Assembly: GCA_905479095.1 (NCBI GenBank)
Contig: CAJQLD010000023.1
Coordinates: 1-64,000, forward strand
Origin: an uncultured Flavobacteriaceae bacterium
GTDB taxonomy: Bacteria > Bacteroidota > Bacteroidia > Flavobacteriales > Flavobacteriaceae
Length of the DNA stretch: 64,000 nucleotides
Direction of reading: 5' to 3'
Below are positions 2,783-10,831 of the stretch, one piece after another. Numbering within the stretch: position 1 is the first letter of the stretch; each line of letters begins with the position of its first letter. The notes beneath the pieces are model-generated. The model saw nothing but the letters and a program-made list of their open reading frames with translations, did not search any database and was not told where the DNA came from. The translations under genes and the position numbers were made by a program.

Positions 2783-3595
2783 ATGGAAAAATTACCTAAA
2801 ATCGGACTCCCAATTATCGTGATACTTGGAGTTTTAGTACTCTTAATATCAAAAACAGCAGTGACCATCGGTCCAGGAGAAGGCGGTGTCTTATTCGAAC
2901 GCTTTGGGCAAGGAATTGTTACCGATAAAACATACGGAGAAGGCTTTCAAATTGTAGCCCCTTGGAACAGCATGTTAATTCACAAAGTAAGACAGCAATC
3001 TATTTCGGATGAAATGAATGTTTTATCAGTGAACGGACTTGAAGTGAAAGTCAATGGAACGATCTGGTACGAACCAGAATACGAAAACCTTGGAAGTTTA
3101 ATTAAAACCAAAGGAGAAGACTATGTCAACGAGCTTTTAAATCCAGCGGTCAATGCAGCGGCAAGAAGTGTGGTTGGGCGTTATACGCCTGAACAATTGT
3201 ATTCTAGTAAGCGTGATGTGATCGAACAAGAAATTCTTGACGAAGTTGTCACTTTATTAGATGGTCAATTTTTAAATGTAAAACGTGTATTGGTAGAAGA
3301 TGTAAAACTTCCTAACACCATTAAAAATGCGATTGAGAGTAAATTAAAGCAAGAACAAGAATCTTTAGAGTATGAATTTAGATTAGTAACGGCTGATAAA
3401 GAAGCTCAAAAAGTACGTATTGAAGCACAAGGTAAAGCAGATGCCAATAAAATATTAAGTGCGTCTCTTAACGATCGAATCCTTCAAGATAAAGGGATTG
3501 AAGCGACTGTAAAGTTATCGGAATCTCCAAACAGCAAAGTGATTGTTATTGGTTCTGGAAAAACTGGATTGCCAATTATTTTAGGGAATCAATAA
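2783..3595 (+). CDS. SPFH domain / prohibitin-family membrane protein
   Basis: N-terminal TM, GPGEGGVLFERFGQG, SPFH/prohibitin-like body and coiled coil with EAQGKADANKIL. Confidence 0.88.
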   Translation: MEKLPKIGLPIIVILGVLVLLISKTAVTIGPGEGGVLFERFGQGIVTDKTYGEGFQIVAPWNSMLIHKVRQQSISDEMNVLSVNGLEVKVNGTIWYEPEYENLGSLIKTKGEDYVNELLNPAVNAAARSVVGRYTPEQLYSSKRDVIEQEILDEVVTLLDGQFLNVKRVLVEDVKLPNTIKNAIESKLKQEQESLEYEFRLVTADKEAQKVRIEAQGKADANKILSASLNDRILQDKGIEATVKLSESPNSKVIVIGSGKTGLPIILGNQ

Positions 3596-3708
3596 TTTAC
3601 AAACGATTAGTTAGTTTATACTGGCTTTTTTAAGAAATCAATAATTTTTAGAAATAAGTTAGGTTTACACTATTTATTTTTTGAATATTTGTACTCAATA
3701 TTATTAGA

Positions 3709-3768
3709 ATGAAATTATCATTATTTATACATCACCATCATTTACTTACTAGCGATCAAGCGAGGTAA
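3709..3768 (+). CDS. his operon leader peptide MKLSLFIHHHHLLTSDQAR
   Basis: Short ORF ATG(3709)..TAA(3766-3768) with four consecutive His codons cat-cac-cat-cat (3730-3741), upstream of an intrinsic terminator and hisG. Confidence 0.9.
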   Translation: MKLSLFIHHHHLLTSDQAR

Positions 3769-3827
3769 CGATGTGTAGGATAAATAATTAAACTATATAA
3801 CAGACCCGTTTGAGCAATCAAGCGGGT
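3756..3827 (+). promoter_or_regulatory. his operon transcription attenuator (antiterminator/terminator switch)
   Basis: TCAAGCGAGGT (3756-3766) can pair with ACCCGTTTGA (3804-3813, one bulged A), competing with the terminator stem 3804-3827. Confidence 0.85.
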
Positions 3828-3832
3828 TTTTT
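3804..3832 (+). terminator. Intrinsic attenuator terminator upstream of hisG
   Basis: ACCCGTTTGA-GCAA-TCAAGCGGGT: 10 bp stem (one G-U), GCAA tetraloop, followed by a T run. Confidence 0.9.
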
Positions 3833-3858: not shown

Positions 3859-4716
3859 ATGAACACTTTAAAAATTGCAGTTCAAAAGTCAGGTCGACTT
3901 AAAGACGATTCAATGAAATTATTGAAAGATATTGGTATTTCAATTGATAATGGGAAGGATCAACTAAAGGCCACAGCGACCAACTTTCCGGTCGAGGTTT
4001 TTTATCTTCGTAATGGCGATATTCCTCAATACCTAAAAGATGGGGTGGTCGATGCCGCGATTATTGGAAACAATGTTTTGGTAGAAAAGGGCAATTCGAT
4101 TGAGTATATCTCTAAACTTGGATTTTCTAAATGTCGGGTGTCTATTGCGGTTCCTAAAGCTATGGAATATCAATCTCTCAATGATTTGAACGGCAAGCAA
4201 ATTGCGACTTCGTATCCAAATACCGTCAATGCGTTTTTAGAGGAGAACAATATCAAAGCCAGTATCCATGTCATTAATGGGTCAGTTGAAATTGCACCCA
4301 ACATTGGGTTAGCAGATGCCATTGTAGATATTGTTTCTACAGGTGGCACCTTGTTTAAAAATAACTTGGTTGAGAAGGAAGTGATTCTAAAATCGGAAGC
4401 TGTTTTAGCAGTGTCTCCAACCATCAATGCAGCGCAACAAGCTATTTTAGATAAAATAAAATTCCGTATTGAGTCGGTGCTTAAAGGACAATCGTCCAAG
4501 TACGTTCTTTTGAATGCACCTAACGAGAGTTTAGAAGCGATTATTAACCTCTTACCAGGCATGAAAAGTCCAACCGTTCTTCCATTGGCGGAATCGGGCT
4601 GGAGCTCGGTACACAGTGTGATTGATAAAAACCAATTTTGGAATATTATTGACGACTTAAAAGCATTAGGAGCTCAAGGCATCCTTATTTGTCCAATCGA
4701 AAAAATGGTTCTCTAA
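3859..4716 (+). CDS. hisG: ATP phosphoribosyltransferase
   Basis: LKIAVQKSGRLKDDS, VDAAIIGNNVL, DAIVDIVSTGGTL; first gene of the his operon. Confidence 0.97.
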   Translation: MNTLKIAVQKSGRLKDDSMKLLKDIGISIDNGKDQLKATATNFPVEVFYLRNGDIPQYLKDGVVDAAIIGNNVLVEKGNSIEYISKLGFSKCRVSIAVPKAMEYQSLNDLNGKQIATSYPNTVNAFLEENNIKASIHVINGSVEIAPNIGLADAIVDIVSTGGTLFKNNLVEKEVILKSEAVLAVSPTINAAQQAILDKIKFRIESVLKGQSSKYVLLNAPNESLEAIINLLPGMKSPTVLPLAESGWSSVHSVIDKNQFWNIIDDLKALGAQGILICPIEKMVL

Positions 4717-6014
4717 TGGCATCTATTTCCAAATATCCACCCATTTCAACATGGGAAACTTTGTTACAACGCCCGACTCAATCTGTTGAGGCAATCGAAG
4801 CAATTGTGGATGAAGTGTTTTTAGCGGTCAAACAAGAAGGGGATGCGGCCATTACTCACTATACAAAACGGTTTGATAAGGTTGAATTAACAGCTTCTTT
4901 TGTTTCTCAAGAAGAAATTGAACAAGCATCGGCACTCGTGTCAAACGATTTAAAAGCAGCCATTCAACAAGCAAAATCGAATATTGAAGTTTTTCACGCT
5001 GCTCAAAAAACAGCGAAAGTAGATGTTGAAACACAACCAGGTGTTCGTTGTTGGCAAGAAAAACGGCCTATTGAAACGGTTGGATTGTACATTCCAGGCG
5101 GGACTGCACCCTTGTTTTCGACGGTTTTAATGTTAGGAGTGCCTGCGACTTTAGCGGGATGTAAGAACATCATTTTATGTACCCCTCCAAATGCGAAAGG
5201 CGCCATTGCAAGTGAAATTTTGTATACCGCAGCTTTGTGTGGCATTACAACGATTGTTAAAGTAGGCGGGATTCAAGCCATTGCTGGGTTGACTTTTGGA
5301 ACCTCTAGTATTCCTAAAGTTTCTAAGATTTTTGGACCAGGGAATCAGTATGTGACGGTCGCCAAACAATTGGCAACCAAATATGGAGTTGCGATCGATA
5401 TGCCTGCGGGCCCAAGTGAACTTCTTATTATGGCCGATAAAAATGCTAATCCAGCTTTTGTGGCCTCAGATTTATTAAGTCAAGCCGAGCATGGTGCTGA
5501 CAGTCAGGTGGTTTTGGTGTCAACCGACGAAACACTTCTTTTGGAAACAGCGAAACAAGTCCGTATTCAAACTCAATTATTAGCACGTCAATCGATCCTA
5601 GAAAAAGCACTTGAGAACATGAAGCTGATTTTAGTAAAATCAGATCAGGAAGCGGTCGATCTAATCAATTTTTATGGTCCTGAACACTATATCATCTGCA
5701 CCGATAATTCGCCCTTTTTTGTAGATAGCGTGATCAATGCAGGTTCTGTTTTTATTGGTAAATACACGCCTGAGAGTGCGGGCGATTATGCGTCTGGAAC
5801 CAATCATACCTTGCCAACAAATGGCTATGCAAAAGCGTATTCGGGGGTCAACTTGGATAGTTTTTTAAAAAACATCACCTTTCAAGAAATCTCCAAAGAG
5901 GGTTTGCAAACTATCGGAACGACTATCGAACTTATGGCGGAAGCCGAAGGTTTAATGGCACATAAGAATGCCGTATCTATTCGACTAAAATCAATTGAAG
6001 ATGAATCTAAATAA
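4716..6014 (+). CDS. hisD: Histidinol dehydrogenase
   Basis: KIFGPGNQYVTVAKQL, DMPAGPSELLI, AEHGADSQVVLV; ATG overlaps the hisG stop (TAATG). Confidence 0.97.
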   Translation: MASISKYPPISTWETLLQRPTQSVEAIEAIVDEVFLAVKQEGDAAITHYTKRFDKVELTASFVSQEEIEQASALVSNDLKAAIQQAKSNIEVFHAAQKTAKVDVETQPGVRCWQEKRPIETVGLYIPGGTAPLFSTVLMLGVPATLAGCKNIILCTPPNAKGAIASEILYTAALCGITTIVKVGGIQAIAGLTFGTSSIPKVSKIFGPGNQYVTVAKQLATKYGVAIDMPAGPSELLIMADKNANPAFVASDLLSQAEHGADSQVVLVSTDETLLLETAKQVRIQTQLLARQSILEKALENMKLILVKSDQEAVDLINFYGPEHYIICTDNSPFFVDSVINAGSVFIGKYTPESAGDYASGTNHTLPTNGYAKAYSGVNLDSFLKNITFQEISKEGLQTIGTTIELMAEAEGLMAHKNAVSIRLKSIEDESK

Positions 6015-7038
6015 ATTACTTCGATCTAATATTAATGGGATGACACCCTATTCGTCTGCGCGCGATGAATACAAAGATTTGGAAGCTGACATGGTGTTTT
6101 TGGATGCCAATGAAAACCCGTTTGACAATTCGTTAAATCGATACCCCGATCCCCAACAGACGGCCTTAAAAAAACTAATTTCAGCACAAAAAAAGGTTCC
6201 GACGGATCAAATCTTATTGGGAAATGGAAGTGATGAAGTCTTAGATTTAATTTTTAGAGCGTTTTGTGAACCCAATCAAGACCGTATTCTGACGTTTCCA
6301 CCAACCTATGGGATGTACGACGTATTGGCAAATTTGAACGCCATTAAAAATATTCAAGTGCCCTTAACGTCAGACTTCAATTTAGACGTCGATCGTATTT
6401 TAAAACAGGTTCAACCAGAGACGAAGTTACTGTGTATCTGTTCCCCAAATAATCCTTCTGGAAATGTGGTTGATCGCAAGGCAGTAGAACGCCTTTTAAA
6501 GGCGTTTAATGGCTTAGTCATCATTGATGAAGCCTATATTGATTTCTCTAATGAAGTGAGCTGGACAGCGTATTTAAACATGTATCCAAATCTAATTGTG
6601 ACACAAACCCTTTCAAAAGCCTATGGGCTCGCGGGCATCCGATTGGGGATTTGCTATGCATCTAAAGACATTATTGCGGTATTAAATAACATAAAACCAC
6701 CTTATAACATCAATACGCTTACCCAAAATGCAGCCATAGAGGCGCTCCAAAATAGGGAAGTGGTGACTGAACAGATTGCCCTGATTTTAAAGGAACGTGC
6801 TCATTTAACAACAGCCTTTGAGTCGTATTCGTTTATCGAAAAAATATATCCTTCCGATGCAAATTTTATTTTAATCAAAGTGGATGATGCCCATAAACGG
6901 TATACAGAACTTATAAAAAATGGAATCGTCGTCAGAAATAGAAGCGCCCAATTTGGTTGTGAAAACGGTCTCAGAATTACAGTAGGAACCCCTTCTGAAA
7001 ACGCTCAATTATTAACCCTATTAAATACCCTAAAATGA
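6001..7038 (+). CDS. hisC: Histidinol-phosphate aminotransferase
   Basis: Aminotransferase I/II fold, [19 protein letters not shown]. Confidence 0.97.
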
Positions 7039-8168
7039 AACCTGTATTATTTATAGATCGCGATGGAACCATCATCAGAGAAACGGCCGATGAACAAATT
7101 GATTCTTTTGAAAAGCTAGAATTTTACCCGGATGTATTTTCTAATTTGAAAAAGATTTGTCAAGAACTGGATTTCGAAATTGTAATGATTACCAATCAAG
7201 ACGGTTTAGGCACTGCTATTTACCCTGAAAACACGTTTTGGCCGGTTCATAATTTTATACTCGATACCTTTAAAAATGAAGGGATTGTTTTTGAAAAACA
7301 ATTCATTGATAAAACATTTGCAAAAGACAATGCGCCAACACGCAAACCTCAAACAGGTTTGTTAACAGACTATTTCACAGAAGCCTATGATTTAGAAAAT
7401 TCGTTTGTGATTGGAGATCGTCTCACCGACGTAGAATTGGCAAAAAACCTAGGCTGTAAAGGCATTTATATCAATGATGAAACGCATTTAGGAGAAAATG
7501 AAATATCCGTAAATCAGGATGCATTAACCCCTTATATCGCTTTAGAAACCAATAGTTGGAAAACTATTTATGAGTTTTTGAAAGCCGATCAACGGGTTGG
7601 ATCTAGTGTACGAAATACCAATGAAACTAAGATAAATATTAGGCTGAATTTGGATGGGACTGGTAAAAGCAAAATCGATACGGGGATTGCCTTTTTTGAT
7701 CATATGTTAGATCAGATTGCGCGTCATGGTCAAATGGATTTGGATCTTAAAGTGGTGGGCGATTTAGAAGTAGATGAACACCATACAATCGAAGATACAG
7801 CCATTGCTTTAGGGAATTTATTTCATACGTTGTTAGGCTCAAAACTAGGAATTGAACGTTACGGATTTTGCTTGCCAATGGACGACTGTATTGCCCAAGT
7901 GGCGATTGATTTTGGAGGAAGAAATTGGTTGGTTTGGGAGGCCGATTTTAAACGTGAATATGTGGGGAAAATGCCCACAGAAATGTTCATGCACTTCTTT
8001 AAATCTTTTACGGATGGCGCCAAATGTAATTTAAACATTCAAGCAGATGGAACGAATGAACACCACAAAATTGAAGCCATATTCAAAGCATTTGCAAAGG
8101 CGATAAAAATGGCTGTCAAAAGAGATGTCAATAAAATGATTTTACCATCAACCAAAGGAACTTTATAA
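7035..8168 (+). CDS. hisB: Bifunctional histidinol-phosphatase / imidazoleglycerol-phosphate dehydratase
   Basis: N-terminal HAD phosphatase [10 protein letters not shown]-terminal [31 protein letters not shown]; 4 nt overlap with hisC. Confidence 0.97.
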
Positions 8169-8171
8169 TAA

Positions 8172-8753
8172 ATGAAAGTCATTATAATCGATTACGGAGC
8201 AGGGAATATTCAGAGCATTCAATTCGCGTTTCAACGTTTGGGCATCCAGGCGGTTTTATCAAATTCTGTCGATGAAATTCTAAGTGCTGATAAAGTCATA
8301 TTTCCTGGGGTTGGCGAAGCAAGTCAGGCCATGGAGATGTTAAAAAAATCTAAGTTAGACCGGTTGATACCAACGCTCAAACAAGATGTTTTAGGGATTT
8401 GTTTAGGCATGCAATTGTTGTGCAATCATTCTGAGGAAGGCGATACTAAAGGACTTGGCGTTTTTGATGTAGAAGTCAAACGGTTTACAAATGCGGTGAA
8501 AGTGCCGCATATGGGATGGAATACAATTCAAAACCTCCAATCGGATTTATTGATAGAGATCCCTGAAAATAGCTATATGTACTCTGTTCATAGTTATTAT
8601 GCAGCGATTGGGGCGCAAACCATTGCGAGCTCTAGGTATGAACTAGAATTTTCGGCGGCATTGCAATCCAATAATTTTTATGGGGTTCAATTTCACCCTG
8701 AAAAAAGCAGTAAAGACGGGGCTCAATTATTACAAAACTTTTTAAACTTATAA
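8172..8753 (+). CDS. hisH: Imidazole glycerol phosphate synthase glutaminase subunit
   Basis: GATase class [19 protein letters not shown]. Confidence 0.97.
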
Positions 8754-8754
8754 C

Positions 8755-9483
8755 ATGCGAATTATACCTGCAATCGATATTATTAATGGTCAGTGTGTAC
8801 GACTGACGAAAGGTGATTATAGCACCAAAAAAGTCTACAATGAAAACCCTTTAGAAGTTGCTAAAATGTTTGAAGGTGTTGGGATCGAGCATCTTCATGT
8901 GGTAGATTTAGACGGAGCAAAAGCCCAACATATTATCAATCATAATATCTTGGAATCCATTGCGACAAACACCAGTTTGAAAGTCGATTTTGGAGGTGGA
9001 TTAAAATCCGATGCCGATTTAAAAATCGCATTTGATTCTGGTGCCCATCAGGTTACTGGGGGCAGTATTGCGGTTAAAAATCCAACACAATTTTTAAATT
9101 GGTTGGATACTTTTGGTGCTGATAAAATTATATTGGGCGCCGATTGTTTAGATCAAAAAATAGCCATTCAAGGTTGGCAAGAAGAGAGTGACAAGGAAGT
9201 GATCGAATTTATAAAAGAATTTGTATCAAAAGGCATCTCCTATGTGATTTGTACCGATATTTCAAAAGATGGCATGCTTCAGGGCCCTTCGTTTGAGTTA
9301 TATGAAACGATTTTAAACACTGTCAGCCCTGTCAATCTGATTGCATCTGGAGGGATTTCAGCGTTTGAAGAGTTGCCACAATTGGCGGAATTGGGATGTG
9401 AAGGGGTTATTATTGGAAAAGCTATTTACGAAGGAAATATCAGTTTAAAACAATTAGAAACCTATCAATTAAACCGTCCATAA
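8755..9483 (+). CDS. hisA: Phosphoribosylformimino-5-aminoimidazole carboxamide ribotide isomerase
   Basis: [30 protein letters not shown]-barrel repeats. Confidence 0.97.
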
Positions 9484-9485
9484 GT

Positions 9486-10241
9486 ATGTTAGCAAAACGA
9501 ATTATTCCATGCTTAGATATTAAAAACGGCCGAACCGTAAAAGGGGTTAATTTTTTAAACCTTAGAGATGCTGGGGATCCGGTCGCCTTGGCAAAACAAT
9601 ATGCCGAAAACGGTGCCGATGAATTGGTGTTTTTAGACATCACGGCGACCTTAGAGTCTCGTTCCACGACCATCGAAATGGTGCGGTCTGTTGCAGAACA
9701 AATCGACATTCCGTTCACGGTTGGTGGTGGGGTGAGTACCAAAGAAGGGGTCGAAATCCTCCTAAAATCGGGGGCCGATAAAGTGGGTGTAAATTCAGCG
9801 GCTATCAAACGTCCAACGCTTATCAACGAGCTATCCAAGGCCTTTGGAAACCAATGCATTGTTGTGGCAATCGATGCGAAACAAGTGGATGGTAAATGGT
9901 TAGTACATTTGGCTGGCGGCACGATTCCTACAGAGTTAGACTTGTTTGAATGGGCCAAAGAGATGGAAACTCGAGGTGCAGGTGAACTACTTTTCACTTC
10001 CATGAACAACGATGGCGTCAAAACAGGGTTTGCAAATGAGGCACTTGCACAACTTTCAGAAACCGTAAACATTCCAATTATTGCTTCTGGGGGTGCTGGA
10101 ACTATGGCGCATTTTGTGGATGTATTTAAAGACGGCAAAGCAGATGCCGCTTTGGCAGCTAGTGTATTTCACTTTGGTGAAATTGAAATAAAAGATTTAA
10201 AACAAGAATTACAATCAAAACAAATAAACATACGACTCTAA
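9486..10241 (+). CDS. hisF: Imidazole glycerol phosphate synthase cyclase subunit
   Basis: [39 protein letters not shown]. Confidence 0.97.
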
Positions 10242-10831
10242 TGGACATCAAGTATAACAGTGCCGGATTAATCCCAGCAATTATTCAAGATTCGACAACC
10301 AAAACCGTTTTAATGCTCGGGTATATGAATGCCGAAGCGGTTTCCAAAACTCTGGAAACTAATAAGGTAACTTTCTTTAGTCGAAGCAAGCAGCGCCTTT
10401 GGACAAAAGGGGAGGAGAGTGGTCATTTTTTAACCTTAAACAGTTTGAAGAATGATTGTGATAACGACACCTTACTCATTCAGGCAACTCCAGAAGGCCC
10501 AACCTGCCATAAAGGAACGGATAGCTGTTGGGGGGCGACTAACGCCGAATCGTATGGGTTTTTATCAGAATTAGAATCCATTATTTCCGATCGAAGAGAA
10601 AATGCTTCCGCTGAAACGTCTTATGTGTCCGAATTATTTGAAAAAGGCATCAATAAAATTGCTCAAAAAGTAGGCGAGGAGGCCGTTGAAGTGGTGATTG
10701 AAGCGAAAGATGCAAACGATGATTTGTTTTTAAATGAAAGTGCCGATTTATTATTTCATTACTTAATTTTATTGCAAGCAAAAGGCTTTAAGCTCGATTC
10801 GGTTATTGAGGTTTTGAAATCGAGACATTAA
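10241..10831 (+). CDS. hisIE: Bifunctional phosphoribosyl-AMP cyclohydrolase / phosphoribosyl-ATP pyrophosphatase
   Basis: MLGYMNAEA, SRSKQRLWTKGEESGH, C-terminal KVGEEAVEVVIEA. Confidence 0.97.
   Translation: MDIKYNSAGLIPAIIQDSTTKTVLMLGYMNAEAVSKTLETNKVTFFSRSKQRLWTKGEESGHFLTLNSLKNDCDNDTLLIQATPEGPTCHKGTDSCWGATNAESYGFLSELESIISDRRENASAETSYVSELFEKGINKIAQKVGEEAVEVVIEAKDANDDLFLNESADLLFHYLILLQAKGFKLDSVIEVLKSRH

Follow-up and report, generated by a model that had tools for sequence, protein, structure and literature searches.

Does the short histidine-rich reading frame upstream of hisG in this uncultured Flavobacteriaceae bacterium, together with the hairpin that follows it, form a switch that sets transcription of the his operon by the supply of histidine? 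We addressed this question in the window (the whole stretch of 64,000 nucleotides that was analysed) and in related genomes. The positions and letters that an earlier note had given for the leader ORF, its His codons, the terminator arms, the loop, the T run and the hisG ATG all match the sequence, and the observation of a leader and a terminator preceding hisG is confirmed. The features are as follows.

3684..3691, plus strand: predicted -7 promoter box AATATTTG, a 7/8 match to the flavobacterial TAnnTTTG.
3709..3768, plus strand: leader peptide ORF of 19 codons, MKLSLFIHHHHLLTSDQAR followed by the stop (sequence; homologous leaders in nearly all relatives).
3720..3753, plus strand: segment 1, the 5' strand of hairpin 1:2, which contains the His codons (minimum free energy (MFE) fold, family-wide z, covariation).
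3730..3741, plus strand: regulatory codons, four His in tandem, CAT CAC CAT CAT (sequence; His-run survey).
3756..3766, plus strand: segment 2, the antiterminator 5' strand TCAAGCGAGGT (pairing energy, covariation).
3772..3799, plus strand: small hairpin, 3772-3778 with 3793-3799, nested in the antiterminator (genus conservation, folding).
3804..3813, plus strand: segment 3, the terminator 5' arm ACCCGTTTGA, common to the antiterminator (terminator scan, covariation).
3818..3832, plus strand: segment 4, the terminator 3' arm TCAAGCGGGT (3818-3827) with the T tract (3827-3832) (terminator scan, alignment).
3859..4716, plus strand: hisG, the first gene of the operon (NCBIfam TIGR00070 and TIGR03455).
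4716..10831, plus strand: hisD (start uncertain), hisC, bifunctional hisB, hisH, hisA, hisF and hisIE (NCBIfam).

The leader runs from its ATG at 3709 to a TAA stop at 3766-3768, and segment 2, which spans its final codons and the first base of the stop, is a repeat of the terminator 3' arm. The terminator itself was recovered by the scan at 3802-3829 with 12 pairs (3802-3832 with the T tract) and carries a GCAA loop at 3814-3817; the fold of the leader as a whole has a z of -4.8 against dinucleotide shuffles in the window. As judged from the NCBIfam assignments of the downstream ORFs, the putative attenuator heads a complete hisGDCBHAF-IE operon. Given that only ~27 nt separate the terminator from hisG, any transcription coming from upstream must cross the terminator.

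A generic sigma-70 promoter scan is uninformative for Bacteroidota; we used the flavobacterial sigma-A -7 consensus TAnnTTTG and its spacing as given in a report on Flavobacterium psychrophilum (PMC9723704). The box at 3684-3691 is kept in 13 of 15 members of the genus and changed in the other two, and a count of exact TAnnTTTG copies gave 73 within the 60 nt preceding 211 leaders, as compared with 21 of 831 control windows. The predicted transcript start lies near 3696, 13 nt 5' of the leader ATG.

The earlier note had proposed that the His run should recur in relatives. We sampled hisG upstream regions from the genus, family, order and phylum of the window and searched the 250 nt upstream of hisG for an ATG ORF of 6-45 codons with at least three consecutive His (one contig, L106, is truncated). 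Such an ORF was found in 203 of 231 distinct regions, and by the same criterion in none of 1155 dinucleotide shuffles and on none of the reverse strands, which excludes chance and bears out the proposal. A leader followed by a terminator is present in 211 of 232 distinct loci, including 179 of the 185 loci from the window's family and others from at least 12 further families. Within the window's family nearly every leader is of the form M-x-F-I-Q-x-H-H-H-H-F-H-x-C-x-Q-A-x. One contig with the same leader and a HisG 93% identical to that of the window (L007, CALSPC010000007.1) bears the record title Rhodobacteraceae; given this identity and the shared leader, it seems that either the title is in error or the contig is misbinned.

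In six distant families (f15, f21, f22, f33, f35 and f54) no terminator was recognised by the rule applied, and these may use a different mechanism or the rule may fail there. The simple scan also missed the E. coli his terminator; it thus under-reports, and a missing call in distant families is no proof of absence. Several distant loci (L244-L246 of f15, L241, L242 and L257-L259) have His-rich leader ORFs without a rule-recognised terminator, some of them with spaced His as in VHHAHHGHHH, and possibly have another read-out or unusual terminators. A 600-kb genome from another family of the order (L228, f14) has hisG with no His-rich leader upstream. Judged by its size it is probably that of an insect symbiont, and the pattern looks as if regulation had been lost in a reduced genome; other genomes of ~0.6 Mb occur in f14, and the absence of the leader was seen in L228, the sole one examined.

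For each locus, we paired the terminator 5' arm against the stretch from the His run to the terminator. In the window, segment 2 pairs with this arm at -12.2 kcal/mol. Over the 211 loci the antiterminator averages -10.8 kcal/mol, compared with -5.3 kcal/mol when the stretches are shuffled; 162 loci beat all 30 of their own shuffles, and in 203 the antiterminator strand falls on the leader's final codons or its stop. The paired strands co-vary between families (TCAAGCG/CGTTTGA and GGTAAGC/GCTTACC), so that CCGTTTGA goes with TCAAGCG, CCGTCTGA with TCAGGCG or AGACGG, GGCTTACC with GGTAAGC, and CCTACC with GGTAGG. Swapping arms between classes weakens the pairing: for the CCTACC class the score is -10.0 with its own arm and between -3.4 and -6.1 with those of other classes, and for the GGCTTRY class it is -12.1 compared with about -8. 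In an alignment of 50 sequences of one architecture, pairing is 100% for the terminator, where 17 double changes were counted, and 90.4% for the antiterminator, where 11 were counted, compared with 3.9 in shuffles (0/500). The covarying, mutually exclusive antiterminator and the stem covariation in relatives that had been suggested from the window's letters are thus both borne out. Moreover, in L204 and L243 segment 2 straddles or follows the stop codon and the pairing is retained, indicating that it is the RNA, rather than the peptide, that is under constraint; the recurrent 'QAR' end of the peptide accordingly reads as a by-product of this constraint.

The earlier note had described only two competing hairpins, a claim that does not hold. 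A third hairpin has the His codons and the bases that follow them on one side, and the 3' end of the ORF plus the nucleotides past the stop on the other; in the MFE fold of the window, segment 1 pairs piecewise with 3760-3788 and the hairpin encloses part of segment 2. Its mean z over the 211 loci is -3.2 against dinucleotide shuffles, and that of the leader folds -3.5 against ORFs with resampled synonymous codons. When covariation was counted on a hand-defined inner hairpin in the 50-sequence alignment, 77% of the positions were paired and double changes numbered 44, shuffles giving 20.7 +/- 5.2 (0/500). RNAalifold returned no 1:2 hairpin from the 50-sequence MAFFT alignment, because the stem is out of register in parts of that alignment. 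This third hairpin corresponds to the hairpin 1:2 of the classical scheme, and the predicted design is the three-hairpin one of the trp/his type. The 7-bp hairpin nested inside the antiterminator (3772-3778/3793-3799) is conserved in the genus.

We then compared the locus with the models of Rfam. In the window and its relatives no model was matched at its threshold, and the proteobacterial RF00514 (His_leader) came nearest. The window gave no hit to it; among the relatives the best was L234, whose top sub-threshold match was RF00514 at 36.5 bits (E = 0.008) for a cut-off of 49, and the positive control from E. coli scored 131.6 bits. The window's leader is not a member of RF00514. At a permissive threshold the window gave chance-level hits only, the Trp_leader model gave no significant match (17.7 bits, cut-off 41) and the T-box covariance model found none in the window. 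Rfam holds no model for a Bacteroidota his attenuator.

How else could the locus be read? The hairpin might be the ordinary terminator of the upstream gene (2783-3595), behind which it lies by ~210 nt, and the His-rich ORF a product of chance; inter-operon terminators are common. We consider this exceedingly improbable, since that gene is separated from the terminator by a promoter-like box and by a leader ORF that is conserved, runs of at least three His never appear in shuffles and the antiterminator covaries. Leader translation might also govern initiation at hisG with no regulated termination, and translational versions could exist in the few distant families where a His-rich ORF is present and a terminator was not found; with a strong terminator and T tract in the window and in 179/185 loci of the family, the pairing fully conserved, this is very unlikely for the locus itself.

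It is likewise most improbable that histidine or tRNA is sensed directly, by a riboswitch or a T-box, or that the His-rich peptide is itself active, for instance as a metal ligand. Short His-rich peptides can bind metals, but the ends of this peptide track the RNA pairing, and segment 2 lies over or beyond the stop in some relatives, so that it is the RNA that is conserved; no Rfam riboswitch or T-box model matched. We hold with high confidence, on the comparative sequence evidence, that the locus controls the his operon by ribosome-mediated transcription attenuation. The locus has a short ORF with tandem codons for the operon's own amino acid, an intrinsic terminator between this ORF and the first gene, and a mutually exclusive antiterminator that uses the terminator 5' arm, as trp/his-type attenuators do. 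The protector hairpin 1:2 is present and covaries family-wide; it is weaker in the window itself (z about -1.6).

For this attenuator, we propose the following course of events. RNA polymerase would start near 3696 and a ribosome would translate the leader. A shortage of His-tRNA would stall the ribosome at any of the four His codons and disrupt hairpin 1:2; segment 2 could then pair with segment 3 ahead of the synthesis of segment 4, and with 2:3 paired no terminator would form and the operon would be read. With ample His-tRNA, the ribosome would arrive at the stop and cover segment 2, and the 3:4 terminator would halt transcription 27 nt short of hisG. In an untranslated leader, hairpin 1:2 could hold back segment 2, again leading to termination, a protective action that we infer.

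The geometry and constrained folding agree with this scheme, in that a ribosome at the His codons frees segment 2 and one at the stop masks it. For RNA ending at 3817, ~9.9 antiterminator pairs are expected with a ribosome at each of His codons 1-4 and none with a ribosome at the stop, as the earlier note had predicted for these two positions. In the same RNA without a ribosome, the 2:3 pairing is preferred at equilibrium. The full-length RNA at equilibrium always prefers the terminator, and the switch must therefore be kinetic. Kinetic switching is a feature of classical systems, including those of E. coli.

The his leader of E. coli and Salmonella (hisL, RF00514) likewise encodes a His run in a short ORF, can fold into alternative hairpins and has an intrinsic terminator before hisG. 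However, hisL of E. coli has seven His codons whereas the Bacteroidota run usually has 3-4, and in Bacteroidota the leader ORF itself contains the antiterminator strand. For the E. coli his leader one more hairpin is described, placed 3' of the pause hairpin and 5' of the terminator (PMC1183508); the 7-bp hairpin conserved in the window's genus sits, for its part, within the antiterminator. Just 3' of the hisL stop, E. coli (L273) carries TTTCAGGCGATGTG, which resembles the flavobacterial segment 2 TCAGGCGAGGTG and is about as far from the His run; this likeness may reflect a common origin or shared pairing needs. The trp attenuator of E. coli follows the same logic with the same number of hairpins (protector 1:2, antiterminator 2:3, terminator 3:4), the Bacteroidota leader differing in its His codons and in a segment 2 that overlaps the leader end and the stop codon. 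In Firmicutes, His leaders are described from the Bacillus cereus group, Peptostreptococcaceae and Erysipelotrichales, with 3-5 tandem His before his operons and a predicted terminator and antiterminator; they are scattered and thought to have been acquired or to have evolved separately in several lineages (PMC9413887), whereas the leader is near-universal in Flavobacteriaceae and occurs in many other Bacteroidota families.

Other candidate leaders were also noticed. The genome of the window has a second one on the minus strand (L266, contig C54 of genome G000), MNQSLNNTWWWCSRKKKS and a stop, upstream of a trpE-like gene. It is followed by a strong terminator, AAGGCTTGTCATTCACGACAAGCCTTTTTTTT, directly 5' of this chorismate-binding gene, and TCGTGA at the leader stop is complementary to TCACGA of the terminator. 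Given that leader and terminator adjoin a trpE-like gene, this is probably a Trp attenuator. At L269, a short Ile/Thr-rich ORF at 1380-1439, MIIVTISTIISTLLGAAII, lies upstream of a long aspartokinase (thrA-like) frame and is a candidate Thr/Ile leader; no clear T tract was seen with it.

Surveys from 2010 and 2013 describe leader-peptide attenuation of amino-acid operons as mainly proteobacterial and scattered elsewhere (PMC3766115, PMC2965389). For F. psychrophilum, 'strong clues' of such attenuation upstream of amino-acid biosynthesis operons were reported, the main text naming no his leader, sequence or structure (PMC9723704). The earlier note's reading as ribosome-mediated attenuation of the his/trp type is supported, and the novelty it suggested was overstated in view of this prior inference. 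The mechanism is already known from the trp and his attenuators of enterobacteria; what is new is the breadth of conservation and the exact anatomy. We found no description of a his leader in Bacteroidota in the open literature, subscription papers lying outside our search. An article by Vitreschak et al. from 2004 (FEMS) reportedly mentions Bacteroidetes/Chlorobi.

Gene order in the his operon of E. coli is identical, hisG-D-C-B-H-A-F-I(E); hisB and hisIE are bifunctional there too, and the proteins are 34-55% identical. With gene order and fusions in common, the leaders may also share an origin. We think it rather unlikely that the Bacteroidota attenuator and proteobacterial hisL descend from one ancestral leader instead of two origins, and it is a similarly tentative idea that such a leader travelled with a his operon that already had this gene order and both fusions. 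If true, this would place it among the oldest traceable leader-peptide switches.

The his attenuator is found in nearly every histidine-maker sampled of one large family, and it recurs in many families of Bacteroidota. Bacteroidota are mostly without Shine-Dalgarno signals. Since the proposed switch needs a ribosome close behind RNA polymerase, its conservation argues for transcription-translation coupling in Bacteroidota, and the leader would offer a ready histidine-responsive element for work in this phylum.
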